Positions 6,209 to 19,443 of a DNA stretch of 38,613 nt are shown piece after piece. Every line of letters begins with the position of its first letter. Position 1 is the stretch's first letter. The notes below the pieces were generated by a model. That model made no database searches, was not told the origin of the DNA, and worked only from the letters and a program-made list of their open reading frames with translations. The stretch covers positions 1 to 38,613 of the forward strand of contig JANQNJ010000087.1 in NCBI GenBank assembly GCA_028279645.1, in the 5' to 3' direction. This DNA is from Thermoplasmatota archaeon. GTDB taxonomy: Archaea > Thermoplasmatota > JAKEGO01 > JANQNJ01. Made by a program: the position numbers and the translations under genes.

Positions 6209-7816
6209 ATGCCCACAAAGGTACTGCTGCTGGTCCTTGATGGCTGGGGCCTCTCGGACAAGGTCGAGGGGAACGCGATCAGGGCTGCGGAGACGCCGAA
6301 CTTCGATCGACTCTGGGACACCTATCCTTCCGGTCCCATCTCCTCGAGCGGAAGGCTTGTCGGACTGCCAGAGGGACAGATGGGGAATTCCGAGGTGGGT
6401 CACATCACGCTGGGTGCGGGAAGGACCGTCTACCAACCCTACATGAGGATCTCTGACTCTATCGAGAAGGGCGAGATCTTCGATAACAAGGTCCTGAGGG
6501 ATACCATACAGAGAGGCGCGGTCCATGGAAAGATGCACCTGATGGGGATGGTCTCTGACGGAGGTGTGCACAGCCACAACACACATCTCTATGCACTGCT
6601 CCGGATGATACGCGACCTGGGCCCTATCGAGAACGTTCATATCCACGCATTCCTGGACGGAAGGGACACGCCCCCCCGGTCGGCGATCGGATATCTCGAA
6701 CAGCTCGAACACAGTATCGAGGAGATCGGGACCGGAAAGGTGGGGACTGTCACTGGTCGTTACTACGCCATGGACAGGGACAAGCGATGGGATCGGACCG
6801 CCAAGGCCTTCGATGTACTGGTCAATCGGAGGGGAGAGATCGCTCGTACACCCCTGGAAGCGGTGGAGAACGCGTACGGCAGGGACGAGAACGACGAGTT
6901 CGTCCTTCCTACCGTGATATGTCCAGAGCGTGGATCATCGAGCGAAAGCGGGATCGGTCCGGAAGACCCCATAATCCTTTTCAACTTCAGACCCGACAGG
7001 ATCAGGCAGATAACGAAAGCTCTCCTGGACGATGGGTTCCAAGGGTTCAAACGGATGCTGGTCAGAGGTGGCTCGGAGATGGAATGGGAGCCACACCGTG
7101 GAGGCCTGGTCTCGATGATGGAGGTAGGTCCGGATATCTCGACCTCGATCGCCTTTCCCCCGATCAAGATCGACAACACCCTGGGAGAGATCGTCTCCCG
7201 ATCAGGCAAGCAGCTGAGGATCGCCGAGACCGAGAAGTACGCCCATGTCACCTTCTTCTTCAATAACGGCAGGGAGGATCCGTTCCCCGGAGAGGACAGG
7301 ATCCTGGTCCCGTCGCCGAAGATCGCGACATACGACCTCCAACCTTCCATGAGCGCAGTCGAGGTAACCGATAGACTTCTATCGAAGCTCGAGGAGGAGA
7401 GCTACGATCTGGTTGTCCTGAACCTCGCAAACCCGGACATGGTCGGCCATACGGGAGAGATGGAAGCGACCATAGAGGCGCTGGAGACCGTAGATGTATG
7501 TATCGGACGGATCATGTCGGTCCATGACGGATATGCCCTGATCACCGGCGACCATGGTAACGCGGAGCAGATGTTCTACGATGGTGGCGCGGTGACGGCG
7601 CATTCCAGCAATCCAGTACCGTTGATCATATGTGGACCTGGTTTCACGGGCAAGGAGATCCGGCTCAAACACCCTCTGGAGGACGGGTGCACGCTGGACC
7701 CACCGGATCAGCAGAATGTCCTGGGGAGCCTGAGGGATATCGGACCGACCATCCTCGACCTGCTCGGATATCCTGTCCCAGAGGAGATGGAAGGGAACGG
7801 CTTCATTATCCATTGA
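6209..7816 (+). CDS. gpmI: 2,3-bisphosphoglycerate-independent phosphoglycerate mutase (GpmI type)
   Basis: LLVLDGWGLSDKVEGNAI, GQMGNSEVGHITLGAGR, ITGDHGNAEQM; ORF track start is 6194 but MPTKVLLLVLDGWG at 6209 fits better. Confidence 0.95.
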   Translation: MPTKVLLLVLDGWGLSDKVEGNAIRAAETPNFDRLWDTYPSGPISSSGRLVGLPEGQMGNSEVGHITLGAGRTVYQPYMRISDSIEKGEIFDNKVLRDTIQRGAVHGKMHLMGMVSDGGVHSHNTHLYALLRMIRDLGPIENVHIHAFLDGRDTPPRSAIGYLEQLEHSIEEIGTGKVGTVTGRYYAMDRDKRWDRTAKAFDVLVNRRGEIARTPLEAVENAYGRDENDEFVLPTVICPERGSSSESGIGPEDPIILFNFRPDRIRQITKALLDDGFQGFKRMLVRGGSEMEWEPHRGGLVSMMEVGPDISTSIAFPPIKIDNTLGEIVSRSGKQLRIAETEKYAHVTFFFNNGREDPFPGEDRILVPSPKIATYDLQPSMSAVEVTDRLLSKLEEESYDLVVLNLANPDMVGHTGEMEATIEALETVDVCIGRIMSVHDGYALITGDHGNAEQMFYDGGAVTAHSSNPVPLIICGPGFTGKEIRLKHPLEDGCTLDPPDQQNVLGSLRDIGPTILDLLGYPVPEEMEGNGFIIH

Positions 7817-12620: not shown

Positions 12621-15245
12621 TTAATCCTTCATCTTATCTTTAATTATTGAAATCTTGTTTTGGTTTCCCATTTCTGTGAATACTTGAATTGCTTTCTGAT
12701 AATGTGAAATTGATTCTTCTCTCCGTCCTTGGGACATTACGATATCACCATACATTTCCCAAAATGAGCCAATATTTTGGTGGCCTCCGATTTTCTCAGT
12801 GGTTTCTATGGCTATCTTGATATATTTCTCTGCGTTCAAATAATCCTTTTGTTGGAGATATGTATCAGCGAACTGGGAATTGGCAAAAATGGTCCCATAG
12901 ATGTCTAGAGAATTTTCAAAGATGTCTATTGCTTCTTCTAGTCCAGCAATCGCCTTATCATATTCACCGTAATCCGAATAAATTGATGCCAAATTTGCTT
13001 TTGAGAAAGCTAAGGCAGTGTTGATGTGATGAGTTCCGGAATAAATAACATTTGATTCCCAATACACTTTGGCTTCATCTATTCGACCATTTATGTATGA
13101 TAAAATTCCTAAATTGTTATATGACCGAGCAATAAGAAAGATGTTATTATCGATCTCTGCTAAAGATAATGATTTTTCCATATATTCTAAACCAGAAGGT
13201 TCATGTTTACTTAATAATCCGAGATCATGATATATCTCACTTAAGAGACGGTTGTCCTTTAATTCTATTCCTAATTGCTCAGCCCGTTTTAAATAGGTTG
13301 TAGCCTCCTTGTTATTCCCTGACCGCCAGTTGACTCGACCGATGCCGATTAAAATTAAACAGGTTTCAGATTTTAATCCTTGTGAAATTGAAATTATTAA
13401 TGCTTCATCGAGATTATTTAGCGCATCAGACCAATTACCTTGTTTAAAGTTTAATCCACCTAGGTAGCGATAAATTGTGATCTTCTGATTGTGATCACAG
13501 GTTGATCCAACAATCTCTTGAAAAGTTCTAATCCCTTCTAAGATATTGTTGTTGTAATAATTCGTGATGCCAAGGAACATCTTGTATTTGATCGGGTCTA
13601 ATTCCTGACCATTGATTCCTTGATAGGATAATAGATCCAATTGATTCATTTCAAATAGAAGTGGAATTCCAGAATCAATGATAATGTCGATTAGTTCGGC
13701 ATTTTGATTCGAACAATAGAGATGATGTAGTAATTCAAAGGTGGAATGATAGTCATTGAAAGATCGGTAATAATTTGCCGCATTGTTATGATATTGTTTA
13801 AATGCTCCTTCATTGTGTCCAGAATGTAAGCTTTGACATATGATATCATGAAGGTAGAAGCCTTCTTTCTTGGTCTCAATAATTAAACCTTTACTCAGCA
13901 GAGAATCAAAGGCATCAAATTCTTCATCATGTTCAATTATTGCGTTTGAATCAACAGGATCACGGAAAACCGATAGCTTCCTTAATATCCGTTTTTCTGC
14001 CATTGATAATTGATTTAAGATCTCATCATGTAAATAGGAATTGAATGACAGATGGTCTCCAAGGGGGTTCTTGATAAGGATTAGTGCATAAGGATGTCCT
14101 TTGAACCTCTCATTGATCAAATGGATCTCTTCAGATGTTTCAATTCCTTTTCCTGTCAGAATTTGACTTGCTTCATCTTCCCTAAGTCCATTTAAGATAA
14201 TCTCACAATGATTATCTCCTGGAGATTGGTTATGCCGAAATGTAATCCTTTCTCGAGAAAGCTGCATAATTCTTAACTTCGGATTTCCATGATCTGCTAG
14301 AATGCTGAAGAATGGTTCCACTGAATCACTTTTTAAATGAACATCATCTAATATTATTACGCCATTAATCTCATTAAGGGAAGTATTAATCACTCCCCAA
14401 ACCTGGTTGTGGGTTAGGAGTGATTTCTCGTCTATTAGACCATATTGATGCGGAATATTTTGTAAATATGAACTGAGATTTGTTAGACCCATTGATGAAA
14501 GGAAGATAGAAATCTCATGTATTAGATCTGATGTAGTCTTATGCGTTTTAAAGGAATAATAGAATAAATTGTTATTGAAACGCGATCTCTTAATGACCTC
14601 ATTAGCTATCGAGGTTTTCCCAATTCCTGCGATACCAGATATGTTGATAACTGCGTGCTTATCTTTCAATGATGACATTATATTATCGATCTGTGTTTCC
14701 CTTCCGTAGAACACCTCATAATTTGGGAGTCCTGGGGTGTGAATGATGAACTTCCTTTCGTGTTGGAGATTAAATGATTTTAATGCTTTATCAAAATCTA
14801 CGGCAGTCCGGATCGTGGATTTCAACCTATTAAGAAAGGAAATCAGGTGATTATCAGCTGGGAAGATCGATCTCAATCTAACAGATTGAACCTCGCCGTC
14901 TGTCAGTACAATTACATCATTTTCCAATATCCTCTCCTTATCGAGGTACGCCTTTTGCTTCCCCTTAGATGTGAGTAAATATACAAATCGACGTCTCCGA
15001 CCATTGTAGATATTCCCTTTCTTCTCCTCCACTAATCCCTCCTTCTCAAGTGATTTTAAAGCTCGTGATACATGGTTCCATTTCAGCTCAGTACCTTCTG
15101 CGACACCTTCCTGCGTTATCTCGAATGGTAGGCTCTTAATAATATCGTCTTTATCAAAATCTTCGATATCAAGGATCTCTTCCTTTGGATAATCAAGTAA
15201 ATAGAGGAGGATCTTGTCCTTCACGGTCAACTCCCGCCAATCCAT
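12621..15245 (-). CDS. Winged-helix + STAND NTPase + TPR protein (paralog 1)
   Basis: N-terminal wHTH (TQEGVAEGTELKWNHVSRALKSLEKEGLV), Walker A GIAGIGKTS, Walker B GVIILDDV, GHPYAL, C-terminal TPRs. ORF track start is 15272, but TATA 15291-15300 and RBS aggtga favour MDWRELT at 15245. Confidence 0.88.
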   Translation of the reverse strand: MDWRELTVKDKILLYLLDYPKEEILDIEDFDKDDIIKSLPFEITQEGVAEGTELKWNHVSRALKSLEKEGLVEEKKGNIYNGRRRRFVYLLTSKGKQKAYLDKERILENDVIVLTDGEVQSVRLRSIFPADNHLISFLNRLKSTIRTAVDFDKALKSFNLQHERKFIIHTPGLPNYEVFYGRETQIDNIMSSLKDKHAVINISGIAGIGKTSIANEVIKRSRFNNNLFYYSFKTHKTTSDLIHEISIFLSSMGLTNLSSYLQNIPHQYGLIDEKSLLTHNQVWGVINTSLNEINGVIILDDVHLKSDSVEPFFSILADHGNPKLRIMQLSRERITFRHNQSPGDNHCEIILNGLREDEASQILTGKGIETSEEIHLINERFKGHPYALILIKNPLGDHLSFNSYLHDEILNQLSMAEKRILRKLSVFRDPVDSNAIIEHDEEFDAFDSLLSKGLIIETKKEGFYLHDIICQSLHSGHNEGAFKQYHNNAANYYRSFNDYHSTFELLHHLYCSNQNAELIDIIIDSGIPLLFEMNQLDLLSYQGINGQELDPIKYKMFLGITNYYNNNILEGIRTFQEIVGSTCDHNQKITIYRYLGGLNFKQGNWSDALNNLDEALIISISQGLKSETCLILIGIGRVNWRSGNNKEATTYLKRAEQLGIELKDNRLLSEIYHDLGLLSKHEPSGLEYMEKSLSLAEIDNNIFLIARSYNNLGILSYINGRIDEAKVYWESNVIYSGTHHINTALAFSKANLASIYSDYGEYDKAIAGLEEAIDIFENSLDIYGTIFANSQFADTYLQQKDYLNAEKYIKIAIETTEKIGGHQNIGSFWEMYGDIVMSQGRREESISHYQKAIQVFTEMGNQNKISIIKDKMKD

Positions 15246-15290
15246 GAGATCACCTAAACATGCGTTAAACACCGATATATCGCTACTTGT

Positions 15291-15358: not shown

Positions 15359-15391
15359 TATATAATAAAATCGGCAAATATATTTATATCA
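15359..15391 (+). promoter_or_regulatory. Candidate promoter (TATA-like) for the + strand cassette
   Basis: tataataaaat and aatatatttatatcag in the divergent intergenic region. Confidence 0.35.
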
Positions 15392-15448
15392 GTACTAGTA
15401 TCTGTTACAAGTCGAACATAGCAATATGTTCGGTTGTGCTCGAGGTGA

Positions 15449-15642
15449 TACCAAAAAGGCGTTTGGTAAAAAGAGGCAAATCCCATAACCAGTGTTACGT
15501 CCCCTTTCACCAAAAGGAAAATTATCTGGTTCATTAGGATTGCTCTATAAGCAATCTTATCCCGAGAACCGTGATAATGGTTAACATGGTTTAGCGTGAG
15601 CTAGGCCTCTCACCTCAGCCTCGACGTAAGAGAAAGAGGTGA
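15449..15642 (+). promoter_or_regulatory. Candidate structured 5' leader with RBS-sequestering hairpin
   Basis: Stems taccaaa/tttggta (15449-15468), ccttt/aaagg (15503-15517), ggttc[gattgct/agcaatc]gaacc (15528-15570), tcacctc/gaggtga (15610-15642). Confidence 0.4.
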
Positions 15643-15647
15643 AATGA

Positions 15648-15716
15648 ATGCTAGGAAAATATGCAAACCTTGTAAGATACGAGAGCATGAAGGAGATCGA
15701 GAACCGGTTCTTCTGA
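15648..15716 (+). CDS. 22-aa micro-ORF copy A: MLGKYANLVRYESMKEIENRFF
   Basis: Own translation; RBS gaggtga 5 nt upstream; homologous to 16583-16651. Confidence 0.6.
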   Translation: MLGKYANLVRYESMKEIENRFF

Positions 15717-15732
15717 GGTCAGGTGGTTTCTG

Positions 15733-16452
15733 ATGAGGGTAAGGACGTTTTCGATTTTCATGATAATGGCACTGGTAGCAACCACTTACATGTCAGTTGC
15801 TGTGCCCGCGAACAGTGGAGAAGGACCGGTCGACCGTTATGCTGTGATCGCAGCACCCACTCACCCTGGGGGAAATGTTTACGAGGAAGCACTCGCAATG
15901 AGGGAATATCTGATCTCAAGAGGCTGGAATGACAACGAGATAGTGTTCCTCACTGATGCTTCCAACGAGTGGTTCGTTGATGGGATATCAACGAAGTTCA
16001 ATATTGAGAACGCTATCAGGTGGGTTGCTGAGAACGCAGATGAGAACGATGTTGTAGGATTAATTCTTGGAGATAGAGGAATGATTTGTGGTAATATGCC
16101 TTACATTGTCACCTCTGATCAAGAATTAATCTCAAGCCATGAATTATCGACATGGATAAATGAGATCAATTGTCCGAACATGCTTGTGAGTTTATCTTTC
16201 GACTTTGATGGTAACTTTATCGAAGCGATTGCTGAACCTGGACGATTAATTACTACATCCCATGGCCTCTTCGAGGAAACTCCGTTCAATGCATACTCTT
16301 TGGCAGAAGGACTCAGAAATCCATTGGCAGATATGAACCGTGACGGGCATGTTTCGATCGAGGAAGCTCAGTCGTTCATTGGAATGCGGATGTTTGAGTT
16401 TGGGCAGTCTCCACAAATGTTCGATGGCGTTCCAGGAGAATTCATTCTCTAG
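15733..16452 (+). CDS. Secreted clan-CD (C13 legumain/caspase-like) protein, predicted catalytically inactive
   Basis: Signal peptide; YAVIAAPTHPGGNVYEEALAMREYLISRGWNDNEIVFLTDA; ISSHELSTWINEINCPNMLVSLSFDFDGNF; NAYSLAEGLRNPLADMNRDGHVSIEEA. GHG and CxSG motifs replaced by GDRG and DFDG. Confidence 0.8.
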   Translation: MRVRTFSIFMIMALVATTYMSVAVPANSGEGPVDRYAVIAAPTHPGGNVYEEALAMREYLISRGWNDNEIVFLTDASNEWFVDGISTKFNIENAIRWVAENADENDVVGLILGDRGMICGNMPYIVTSDQELISSHELSTWINEINCPNMLVSLSFDFDGNFIEAIAEPGRLITTSHGLFEETPFNAYSLAEGLRNPLADMNRDGHVSIEEAQSFIGMRMFEFGQSPQMFDGVPGEFIL

Positions 16453-16465
16453 GAGCGTGCATTCA

Positions 16466-16573
16466 ATGAATAGGAAGAGAAGTAGGATAACAAGAGATCT
16501 TCAACCGACTCTTGGTTGTGAACAACTTGTACGTTGTCATGGACTTAGGGAAAGGGAGATCGACGAAAATTGA
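16466..16573 (+). CDS. Candidate 35-aa ORF MNRKRSRITRDLQPTLGCEQLVRCHGLREREIDEN
   Basis: ATG 14 nt after the pseudo-peptidase stop with aggagcg upstream; stop TGA overlaps the RBS tgaggtga of micro-ORF B. Confidence 0.35.
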   Translation: MNRKRSRITRDLQPTLGCEQLVRCHGLREREIDEN

Positions 16574-16582
16574 GGTGATCCT

Positions 16583-16651
16583 TTGCTAGGTAAGAATTCA
16601 GGATTAATCCGATTTGAAAGCCTTAAAGAGGTCAACGATCGGAAACTTTAA
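16583..16651 (+). CDS. 22-aa micro-ORF copy B: (M)LGKNSGLIRFESLKEVNDRKL
   Basis: Own translation; TTG start, RBS gaggtga 4 nt upstream; same length as and homologous to 15648-15716. Confidence 0.55.
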   Translation: MLGKNSGLIRFESLKEVNDRKL

Positions 16652-16696
16652 AAAAAGAGAGAAAAACAGCGGCATGTTTTCCTCATCTACGCCTCT

Positions 16697-16734
16697 TAGA
16701 TAGAATATGCTGGACGGGAGGCATATTCTATCTA
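16697..16734 (+). terminator. Perfect 14-bp hairpin between convergent genes
   Basis: tagatagaatatgc - 10 nt - gcatattctatcta followed by T-rich tttattttttattt. Confidence 0.65.
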
Positions 16735-19443
16735 TTTATTTTTTATTTCTTTAATTTCAGATTTTATATTATTAACTATTTCAGGTTTATTATGTTTCTC
16801 ATAGATATCTAGAGCTTTTGTAAGATATGAAAGAGCGCTGGTTGTATCTTTCATTGCCTTAAACATTTGCGCATATTCGTAGAACCTTTCAGCAAGATTT
16901 ATTGGTATGTTTAATTGAGTGGTGAGCTCAATGCTTTTTTGAAACCATTTATCTGCAATGGAGTACTCTTCTTTTAGGGTATGTAATATTCCATAACCTT
17001 GATAGACGTAAGAGATTCCAAGCGGATCATTCATTTTTTCCAGGACTGATAATGATTTATCTAGATTTGATAACGCTTTCTTAAAATCACCTTTGCTGGC
17101 ATAAATATCTGCTGTGTTGAATAAGGCATATGCCATTTTATGAATATTGCCGCATTCCATTGATAACTCTATACAACGATTCCAAGAGTCAAGGGCTTTT
17201 TCGAAATCTCCTTGTGTATAATAAAAAACACCAATAATGTTCAAAACATTTGCTTTACCATATATTGCTTTAGCTTTTTCGAAGTACTCAAGGCTCTGTT
17301 TATAGTATGTCTCTACATCTTTAGGTGAGCGTTCAATATACATCATTCCAATGTCAATAGTTGTTTCTCCAAGGAGTATGAGATCGTCATTTATCCGTGC
17401 AAAGTCGAGTGATTTCTGATAATTGCCCAGAGCTTCCTCATCTTCACCTTTCCGCCAATGTACCTTTCCGATACCACGATAGGTATCACCAATGCCTTCT
17501 TTAATATCAATCGAATTTGAGATTTCTAAACTCCGATTATAATAATCGAGTGCTATATCCCATTCACTCCTTTCTCTAAACAAATGACCTAATTTTCGAT
17601 AGATATTTGAAGTTTTTTTAGACATCTCATTGTCGGAGATCCCTAAGGCTTTCTGAAACATCTCAATAGACTCATCCCACTCCCCAATGGCAAAGGCGAT
17701 ATCCCCCTGCAGCATGAACACATCAGCTTTCAGTTCAGGAGGAATATCATCCTCGCTTACAGTATAGGTATCCCGCAACTCCTCCAGGAAACCACGGTTA
17801 ATGAAGACCCTTCCGTTCTCAACGGCGATCTCGGTCGCCTCGTGGAAGGAACCGCTCTCGAGGTAATGGAAGATCGCCTCGATCAGCGATTCGTCCTCCT
17901 TCTGCTCCTCGTAAAACTTGGCCGCCTTGAAATGAAGTTCCTTCTTGTGGTCCTTTGGTAGGGATGAGAAGGATATCTCCTTGACGAGGTCGTGTACCTT
18001 GTAACCAACAAGGGGGATCTCCTCAAGCAGAACATTGTTCACGAGGTTCTCGATGATCGTGTAATCGAGCTCCTCCTCGATGAAGGCCTCAGCCGGGACA
18101 GGCATACGGAACACAGAGACAGTGGACAGAAGGCGGATCTCCTCCTTCGACAGCTTGACGAAGACCTCCTTGTGCATGAAGCGTCTGATATCGCTGGGAC
18201 GGATGATGTCGTAGGGCGACATCATCAACTCTAAAGCCAACGGATGTCCACCGGTCGTCTCGTATACCTTGTCGAAGTTCTCGATCAGGATCTTCTTGTC
18301 CTCGAGCAGCTTCTTGCTGCTCTCGAGGTCGAGGCCGGTTAGGCGGTATTCCTTGACCAGGCCCTTGATGGAGATATCCCTTGTGCTGTAGAAGTTGGGA
18401 ATGTTCCTTGTGAATACCACGATCCGGATCCCCTCGACCTTCTCGAGGGTCTCGAGGAATACCGAGAAGAGAGCTCCGATATGCTCCTCGGATTTCTGGA
18501 GATCGTCGAATATCAGGACGGCGTTGGATTCAGAGAAATCGCTCTCGATGATATCGTATATCTCGTTGAGGTTGATCATCAGCTTGGTGTCTTCGTACCA
18601 ACTTCCGCCCTGACGCCTCTTAGCCGTTAGATACGTCTTCAACCTGTTCTTCCCGATCTGCGAGAGGAAATCGGCTATCTGCTCGAGGACAGCCCTGATG
18701 GTGTCCCATTCGTGGAGATTGTAGTAGAAGGTGTTATACTTCGCCTTGAGGTCCTGGATCAAACGGGCCGCCAGAAGGCTCTTTCCGATACCGGCGATAC
18801 CCTGGACCACCGTGAACTTGGTGTCCGACTCGATGAACTCCATGATCTCGGCGACCTCCGAGGACCTGCCGTAGAAATGCCTTATGGCGGGAATACCCTC
18901 GGAGTATTCGATGAACTCGCGCTCCTTTTCGACCCGCTCCCATTCCTTGAGCTCGAGGTAGATCTCGTCGAGGTTGGAAAGGTCCTCCTCGATGTTCTTG
19001 ATCTCCCTGAGCATCATTGGTAGCGGGAGGTCCGAGGCGTACTTCTCCTTGAGAACGGTCACCGTCCCCGAATGCTTCTTTCCCTCACGTACAATGGTGA
19101 TGGTCATATCGTCGATCTCGACCTTCCGGTTCTGAGAGACCTCTGAACCCTCGGGTGTCAGGAAATAGATGTTGCGACGGCGACCACCGCCGATCACGTG
19201 GGCCTTCTTCCTCATGACCCATTCGTTCTTCTCGAACTCCTTCACGACCCTAGATACGTGGTTCCAGTTGATCCCGACATATTCGGCGATACCCTCCTGG
19301 GTGACCTCCTTCGGCATGGTCGAGAGGATCTCCTTCTTGTCGAGCTCCTCCGGGTCCATGAACTTCTCGAAAGGGTAGTCTAAAAGATGGAGAAGGATCT
19401 TGTCCTTCACGGTGATGTTGGTCGGATGGCTCTTCAGGGTCAT
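16732..19443 (-). CDS. Winged-helix + STAND NTPase + TPR protein (paralog 2), compositional mosaic
   Basis: wHTH (TQEGIAEYVGINWNHVSRVVKEFEKNEWV), Walker A GIAGIGKSL, Walker B AVLIFDDL, GGHPLAL, multiple TPRs; homologous along its length to 12621-15245. Confidence 0.9.
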   Translation of the reverse strand: MTLKSHPTNITVKDKILLHLLDYPFEKFMDPEELDKKEILSTMPKEVTQEGIAEYVGINWNHVSRVVKEFEKNEWVMRKKAHVIGGGRRRNIYFLTPEGSEVSQNRKVEIDDMTITIVREGKKHSGTVTVLKEKYASDLPLPMMLREIKNIEEDLSNLDEIYLELKEWERVEKEREFIEYSEGIPAIRHFYGRSSEVAEIMEFIESDTKFTVVQGIAGIGKSLLAARLIQDLKAKYNTFYYNLHEWDTIRAVLEQIADFLSQIGKNRLKTYLTAKRRQGGSWYEDTKLMINLNEIYDIIESDFSESNAVLIFDDLQKSEEHIGALFSVFLETLEKVEGIRIVVFTRNIPNFYSTRDISIKGLVKEYRLTGLDLESSKKLLEDKKILIENFDKVYETTGGHPLALELMMSPYDIIRPSDIRRFMHKEVFVKLSKEEIRLLSTVSVFRMPVPAEAFIEEELDYTIIENLVNNVLLEEIPLVGYKVHDLVKEISFSSLPKDHKKELHFKAAKFYEEQKEDESLIEAIFHYLESGSFHEATEIAVENGRVFINRGFLEELRDTYTVSEDDIPPELKADVFMLQGDIAFAIGEWDESIEMFQKALGISDNEMSKKTSNIYRKLGHLFRERSEWDIALDYYNRSLEISNSIDIKEGIGDTYRGIGKVHWRKGEDEEALGNYQKSLDFARINDDLILLGETTIDIGMMYIERSPKDVETYYKQSLEYFEKAKAIYGKANVLNIIGVFYYTQGDFEKALDSWNRCIELSMECGNIHKMAYALFNTADIYASKGDFKKALSNLDKSLSVLEKMNDPLGISYVYQGYGILHTLKEEYSIADKWFQKSIELTTQLNIPINLAERFYEYAQMFKAMKDTTSALSYLTKALDIYEKHNKPEIVNNIKSEIKEIKNK

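Follow-up and report, generated by a model that had tools for sequence, protein, structure and literature searches.

Two reading frames of 22 codons that resemble each other bracket a gene for a peptidase-like protein in the 38,613-nucleotide stretch of Thermoplasmatota DNA analysed here (the window), and the question that they raise is whether such short frames are genes and what their products might do. An earlier note on this DNA described them as twins at 15648-15716 and 16583-16651, with 11 identities in 22 positions counting the initiator and with the ribosome-binding site gaggtga ahead of both. These readings hold: the coordinates, frames, start and stop codons are exact, alignment of the two products (p1 and p2) gives 50% identity over 22 columns (11/22 with the initiator), and GAGGTGA is the SD at 15636-15642 for p1 (spacer 5 nt) and at 16572-16578 for p2 (spacer 4 nt). 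The gene between p1 and p2, which the same note took for a pseudo-peptidase, is a pseudo-caspase gene. The locus contains the following features.

12621..15272, minus strand: STAND-A, winged-HTH + STAND NTPase + TPR protein of 883 aa, divergent from p1 (Pfam NB-ARC, TPR_12, HTH)
15376..15416, plus strand: probable archaeal TATA box and operon start region, AAATATATTTATAT, then TACAAGTCGAA (from sequence)
15480..15660, plus strand: structured 5' leader, in which TCACCTC at ~15619 pairs with the p1 SD
15648..15716, plus strand: micropeptide p1, 22 aa, ATG start, MLGKYANLVRYESMKEIENRFF and stop
15733..16452, plus strand: pseudo-caspase, 239 aa, predicted to be secreted, no catalytic His/Cys, EF-hand-like loop DMNRDGHVSIEEA
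16466..16573, plus strand: possible 35-aa ORF MNRKRSRITRDLQPTLGCEQLVRCHGLREREIDEN between pseudo-caspase and p2, with stop/SD overlaps at both ends (TAGGAG and TGAGGTGA)
16583..16651, plus strand: micropeptide p2, 22 aa, TTG start, LGKNSGLIRFESLKEVNDRKL and stop
16697..16734, no strand: terminator-like hairpin, a perfect inverted repeat of 14 bp with a T-rich run after it, between the convergent p2 and STAND-B (repeat search)
16732..19443, minus strand: STAND-B, winged-HTH + STAND NTPase + TPR protein of 903 aa, convergent with p2 (Pfam)

Both peptides are charged, contain no hydrophobic stretch and lack an export signal. The only direct repeat reported near the locus by the repeat search (15327/16570) is short and was treated as chance.

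The window genome comprises 2.24 Mb and is 82% complete; searched in full with p1, it yields p2 alone besides p1 itself (E 0.018). Across 390 genomes of the phylum, a degenerate peptide pattern matches at four sites and no others, namely p1, p2 and two sites in Ca. Thermoplasmatota archaeon PL23a_bin.111 (GTDB record JANQNK010000001.1; hereafter G002), which belongs to the same order and another family. The reversed pattern, used as a control, has one match among the genomes listed. In G002, a p1 homolog (MPGKYGLLVRMESLKEIGRN; 67% over 18 aa against p1) lies directly upstream of the orthologous pseudo-caspase gene, and a p2 homolog (MVKGKYSHLVHAETLKELGLK), missed by the p1 query and found by reading the locus, lies directly downstream. 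A BLOSUM profile built from the four peptides scores all of them at 51-57 and anything else in 43 fetched loci at 27 or below. E-values from a 22-aa query are weak alone, and the case is made by synteny and the uniqueness of the pattern, at two loci in one order. The archaeal homologs that the earlier note proposed to look for thus exist as an intact pair in G002; no frameshift was seen there, and neither the 390 genomes nor a GTDB-wide pattern scan contains a longer homolog from which the peptides could have decayed. Each of the four copies has kept its reading frame, SD and stop codon. The block tcgacg, which the note had seen upstream of both ORFs of the window, is not obvious in G002.

Other matches were rejected. 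Methanobrevibacter Nop10-like proteins (L049-L068) ending in GKYRRILKKESMKE fit the pattern by what was judged chance, the identities being forced by the pattern itself, and the Nop10 of G002 ends in FGKYRRRAKREMAEE, which counts against a Nop10 link. The GTDB-wide scan, for which the pattern was tightened slightly, gave no relevant addition; its remaining matches are a few long proteins and some out-of-context sites, and the five matches in viral contigs are all unrelated. No further credible copy was found with the four-peptide profile across three genomes of the class, and the best match of the peptide profile in the PDB is no better than E 0.11.

p1 and p2 of the window agree at 9 of 16 core residues, six of the nine being encoded by different codons. 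NG86 dN/dS is saturated or undefined for most pairs and a randomisation test was used instead. The four 16-codon cores, aligned by codon, form six pairs, and in each pair more amino acids are identical than when the observed nucleotide differences are placed at random (P 0.0002 to 0.03, the six comparisons not being independent); changes are concentrated at silent or conservative sites in all comparisons. The protein-level constraint that the earlier note had read from third-position differences is thus borne out in all six pairs. Between the window and G002, p1 (67%, 18 aa) is better conserved than the pseudo-caspase (42%) and the STANDs (25-38%). p1 is closer to the p1 of G002 than to p2, which suggests from sequence that p1 and p2 arose by a duplication older than the separation of the two families. 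That p1 and p2 are selected, paralogous and conserved coding genes is strongly supported, and the micropeptides are very probably real because their arrangement is kept in a relative whose larger genes at the locus have diverged further.

The two frames appear to belong to one transcription unit. Upstream of p1, TACAAGYCGAA occurs at a comparable distance from a TATA-like box in G002, the alignment alone not being significant; the promoter similarity between the two genomes is likewise not significant. The 5' leader of the window folds more stably than shuffled sequences (z of about -4 in 100-nt windows and -3.75 for 15415-15720), and neither leader nor locus matches Rfam. A conserved 5' RNA structure was rejected, since G002 lacks the fold, which is thus a lineage-specific detail. 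In both genomes, the TGA stop of p1 overlaps the pseudo-caspase SD, the gap between the two genes being 16 nt in the window and 13 nt in G002. In G002, the pseudo-caspase stop overlaps the p2 SD (TGAGGTGA) and p2 follows directly; the possible 35-aa ORF has no counterpart there. The terminator region of the window (16640-16739) folds with a z of about -4.3, and a terminator-like hairpin of G002 (GGCCTCAAGTGAGGCC) spans the p2 stop. From these signals, p1, the pseudo-caspase gene and p2 look like one translationally coupled operon. p2 is unlikely to be a leader for a downstream gene, because a terminator hairpin follows it and no co-directional gene comes after. Its homology to p1 argues that both act as peptides.

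The operon is framed by two regulator genes, in the order HTH-STAND-TPR (minus strand), p1, pseudo-caspase, p2 (plus strand), HTH-STAND-TPR (minus strand), with the same order and strands in the window and in G002. Pfam matches in the two STANDs are NB-ARC (2.9e-6) / ATPase_2 (1.3e-10) and HTH_Crp_2/MarR, and TPR_12 is found in both (E 2.5e-26 and 6.2e-37). The counterpart of STAND-B in G002 (L014:8426-11245) is 38% identical. The positional counterpart of STAND-A (L014:4844-7441) is only 25% identical, and its orthology is weak (tree support 91/92, long branches). A third genome (G001) carries a STAND-B ortholog (L099:2436-4653) that runs into the end of its contig at the very point where one would look for the micropeptide operon, and this genome is thus uninformative on the micropeptides. 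The earlier note had looked to recurrence beside clan-CD or STAND genes as support, and the G002 pair does flank an orthologous pseudo-caspase gene between two STANDs. Micropeptides are present at both of the two loci where two STANDs frame the operon. They are absent from the other pseudo-caspase loci that were read, which have one STAND or HTH-TPR gene; a third STAND of G002 (L100:5390-8026), the STAND on contig C18 of the window genome and a STAND of genome G007 are without them too.

The product of the middle gene is a caspase-fold protein of clan CD, as judged from profile and model comparisons. A profile of 19 family members matches metacaspase-1 (E 4.9e-6) and legumain (8e-5) in the PDB, and Foldseek matches an AF2 model of modest confidence (pLDDT 59, pTM 0.65) to metacaspase 9 (E 4e-6). 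The catalytic Cys is replaced in 19 of 19 aligned family members, the catalytic His is replaced in the window (GDRGM) and in G002 (GDNGA), and the N-terminus has a hydrophobic, signal-like segment. A search of GTDB contigs with the pseudo-caspase gave no relatives; a profile search of whole genomes found a relative in 55 of 390. Neighbours were surveyed at 15 further loci from families f7 (L075) and f10 (L076-L089) and at C18; wherever a neighbour was typed, through Pfam or by comparing it with the STANDs of the window, it is a TPR regulator, and in several of them an HTH was detectable. Judged by gene neighbourhood, pseudo-caspase and TPR regulator may constitute a wider, uncharacterised two-gene system across the phylum.

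Several further observations concern this wider family. Across the phylum, Cys-less secreted pseudo-caspases (L076-L089, L075, L013) adjoin regulators of either wHTH-TPR (440-494 aa) or HTH-STAND-TPR type. Contig C18 (L013:4479-9917) carries four tandem pseudo-caspase paralogs, separated by long intergenic regions and followed by one STAND-B-like gene, with no micropeptides at the locus. The word AGAGGCGTAGA, expected about zero times in the window, occurs at 16686-16696 by the p2 terminator and again at L013:5692-5702 and 7659-7669, near the pseudo-caspase genes of C18; it is a possible shared regulatory site.

What the peptides do can be proposed tentatively. p1 and p2 may serve the STAND-TPR regulators on either side as leaderless ligands or partners, with the pseudo-caspase as a secreted output or an outside capture component. 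Lacking an export signal, the peptides would act as leaderless ligands or small partners and bind the TPR sensor as inducer or inhibitor; the bound peptide would determine the state of the NTPase switch and the binding of DNA at the divergent operon promoter. The pseudo-caspase, with a peptide-binding fold and no catalysis, would be exported or would capture peptide outside, and the operon products would report their own translation, or peptide returned by a neighbour, to the regulators in a feedback loop. This is the most economical idea because the peptides occur only at two-STAND loci and the TPR-like sensor of a STAND regulator binds an inducer (PMC4381067). It also draws on the retention of the cassette in two families of the order, on p1 as its most conserved part, on constraint at the codon level and on the finding that all typed pseudo-caspase neighbours are TPR regulators. 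Counted against it are the two loci in one order, the charged, signal-less nature of the peptides, the other STANDs without micropeptides and the weak STAND-A orthology. The specific form, archaeal peptide signalling in which two leaderless paralogs are read by two STAND-TPR regulators and a dead secreted caspase serves as capture or output, is doubtful. Among the functions offered by the earlier note, a signalling or ligand role would fit best, whereas a leader role is disfavoured for p2 and a toxin/antidote role finds no supporting evidence.

It is somewhat unlikely, and nearly as likely as a ligand role, that the micropeptides are obligate subunits or chaperone-like partners of a complex (for example with the pseudo-caspase precursor prior to its export, or with another cytoplasmic protein), with no signalling and with two copies on the mRNA setting the stoichiometry. 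Tight coupling on both sides, through the TGA-SD overlap of p1 with the pseudo-caspase gene and the overlap of pseudo-caspase and p2 in G002, fits such a role, as does the strict co-occurrence of the peptides with this pseudo-caspase subtype. However, the peptides are missing beside other members of the pseudo-caspase family, four of them in the same genome, and a pseudo-caspase with a signal would part on export from peptides that have none. Less probable still is that p1 is a leader peptide or coupling ORF for pseudo-caspase translation (by attenuation or SD unmasking), p2 being a duplicate with a similar role in cis. The 16-nt or 13-nt distance, the stop/SD overlap and the structured leader that masks the p1 SD in the window would suit p1, but the 5' structure is absent in G002, in both genomes nothing follows p2 but a terminator hairpin and a convergent gene, and amino acid sequence is kept over most of the peptide, p2 included.

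Two further alternatives have only a slight chance. Both STAND NTPases and caspase-type proteases have been considered in connection with prokaryotic conflict systems (PMC7159879), and the peptides might belong to a defence unit, of toxin-antitoxin or self/non-self type, in which the STANDs are immune sensors. This is very improbable: PADLOC models match generic TPR and HTH-bearing parts only, at their N-termini the STANDs carry a DNA-binding domain and no toxic effector, the caspase-fold protein is predicted to be secreted and has lost its catalytic residues, and the peptides are unlike hydrophobic toxins. The slightest chance falls to a conserved RNA element, or to remnants of the ends of a longer gene or of a mobile cassette, with no peptides made. 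The ORFs are very short and occur in two genomes only, but silent and conservative changes prevail in all comparisons, reading signals are intact in the four copies, and the scans found no longer homolog, no Rfam match and no structure common to both genomes.

None of the families found here matches the micropeptides, and p1 is better conserved than the large neighbouring genes. p1 and p2 provide a testable case of two functional 22-aa archaeal genes, which routine annotation would probably overlook. Should they prove to be ligands of the STAND-TPR proteins, the range of peptide sensing by HTH-TPR proteins would widen to include archaea and STAND receptors, and the phylum-wide linkage of secreted pseudo-caspases with TPR regulators would gain a working hypothesis. 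Signalling of this kind, if true, would run via STAND rather than RRNPP proteins and outside Firmicutes.

In MalT, which senses maltotriose, the HTH is C-terminal. STAND-A and STAND-B resemble it in combining a DNA-binding domain, a STAND NTPase and a repeat sensor, but their HTH is N-terminal and the two frame micropeptide genes. As a STAND regulator, MalT binds its inducer through the TPR-like sensor (PMC4381067). Pseudo-orthocaspases have a caspase fold whose catalytic dyad is lost (PMC6426788); linkage of the fold to NTPase and TPR domains is known in bacteria, and a survey of 2012 found the dyad retained in every archaeal metacaspase that it covered (PMC3501461). The window protein shares the fold and the loss of the dyad but differs in its signal-like N-terminus, its EF-hand-like loop, the replacement of Cys in 19/19 members and the separate HTH-TPR/STAND genes alongside. 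In the literature searched, no paper was found that links micropeptides to archaeal STAND or pseudo-caspase genes.

Two peptide systems of Firmicutes are also comparable. RRNPP systems (Rap, Rgg, NprR, PlcR, PrgX) pair a small gene for an exported propeptide (10-100 aa), often unannotated and with a good SD, with an adjacent TPR receptor of 250-500 aa that mostly binds DNA (PMC10075063). Here too 22-aa ORFs with an SD adjoin TPR regulators, p1 divergent from STAND-A and p2 convergent with STAND-B, and both STANDs carry TPRs, the peptide-binding domain of RRNPP receptors, for which peptide binding is putative here. However, the receptors have 883 and 903 aa with an NTPase, and p1 and p2 are two charged peptides without the basic N-terminus and long hydrophobic segment of a secretion signal; because receptor size and export signal differ, the locus is not filed as RRNPP. 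RRNPP systems are moreover known in Firmicutes and their mobile elements, whereas this locus is archaeal and has a pseudo-caspase between the peptides. In LCP systems, leaderless peptides are bound by TPR regulators, and candidate target genes are mostly divergent to the receptor (PMC10518010). As in SIP-RopB, p1 and p2 appear from sequence to lack a signal, and a TPR regulator is divergent to candidate target genes. LCPs, however, are ultrasmall (the SIP ORF has 24 bp) and act on a RopB/Rgg-type receptor, whereas p1 and p2 have 22 aa, are duplicated, are conserved along most of their length and adjoin STANDs. The best reading is that the p1/p2 system is analogous to the RRNPP and LCP peptide systems and a member of neither.
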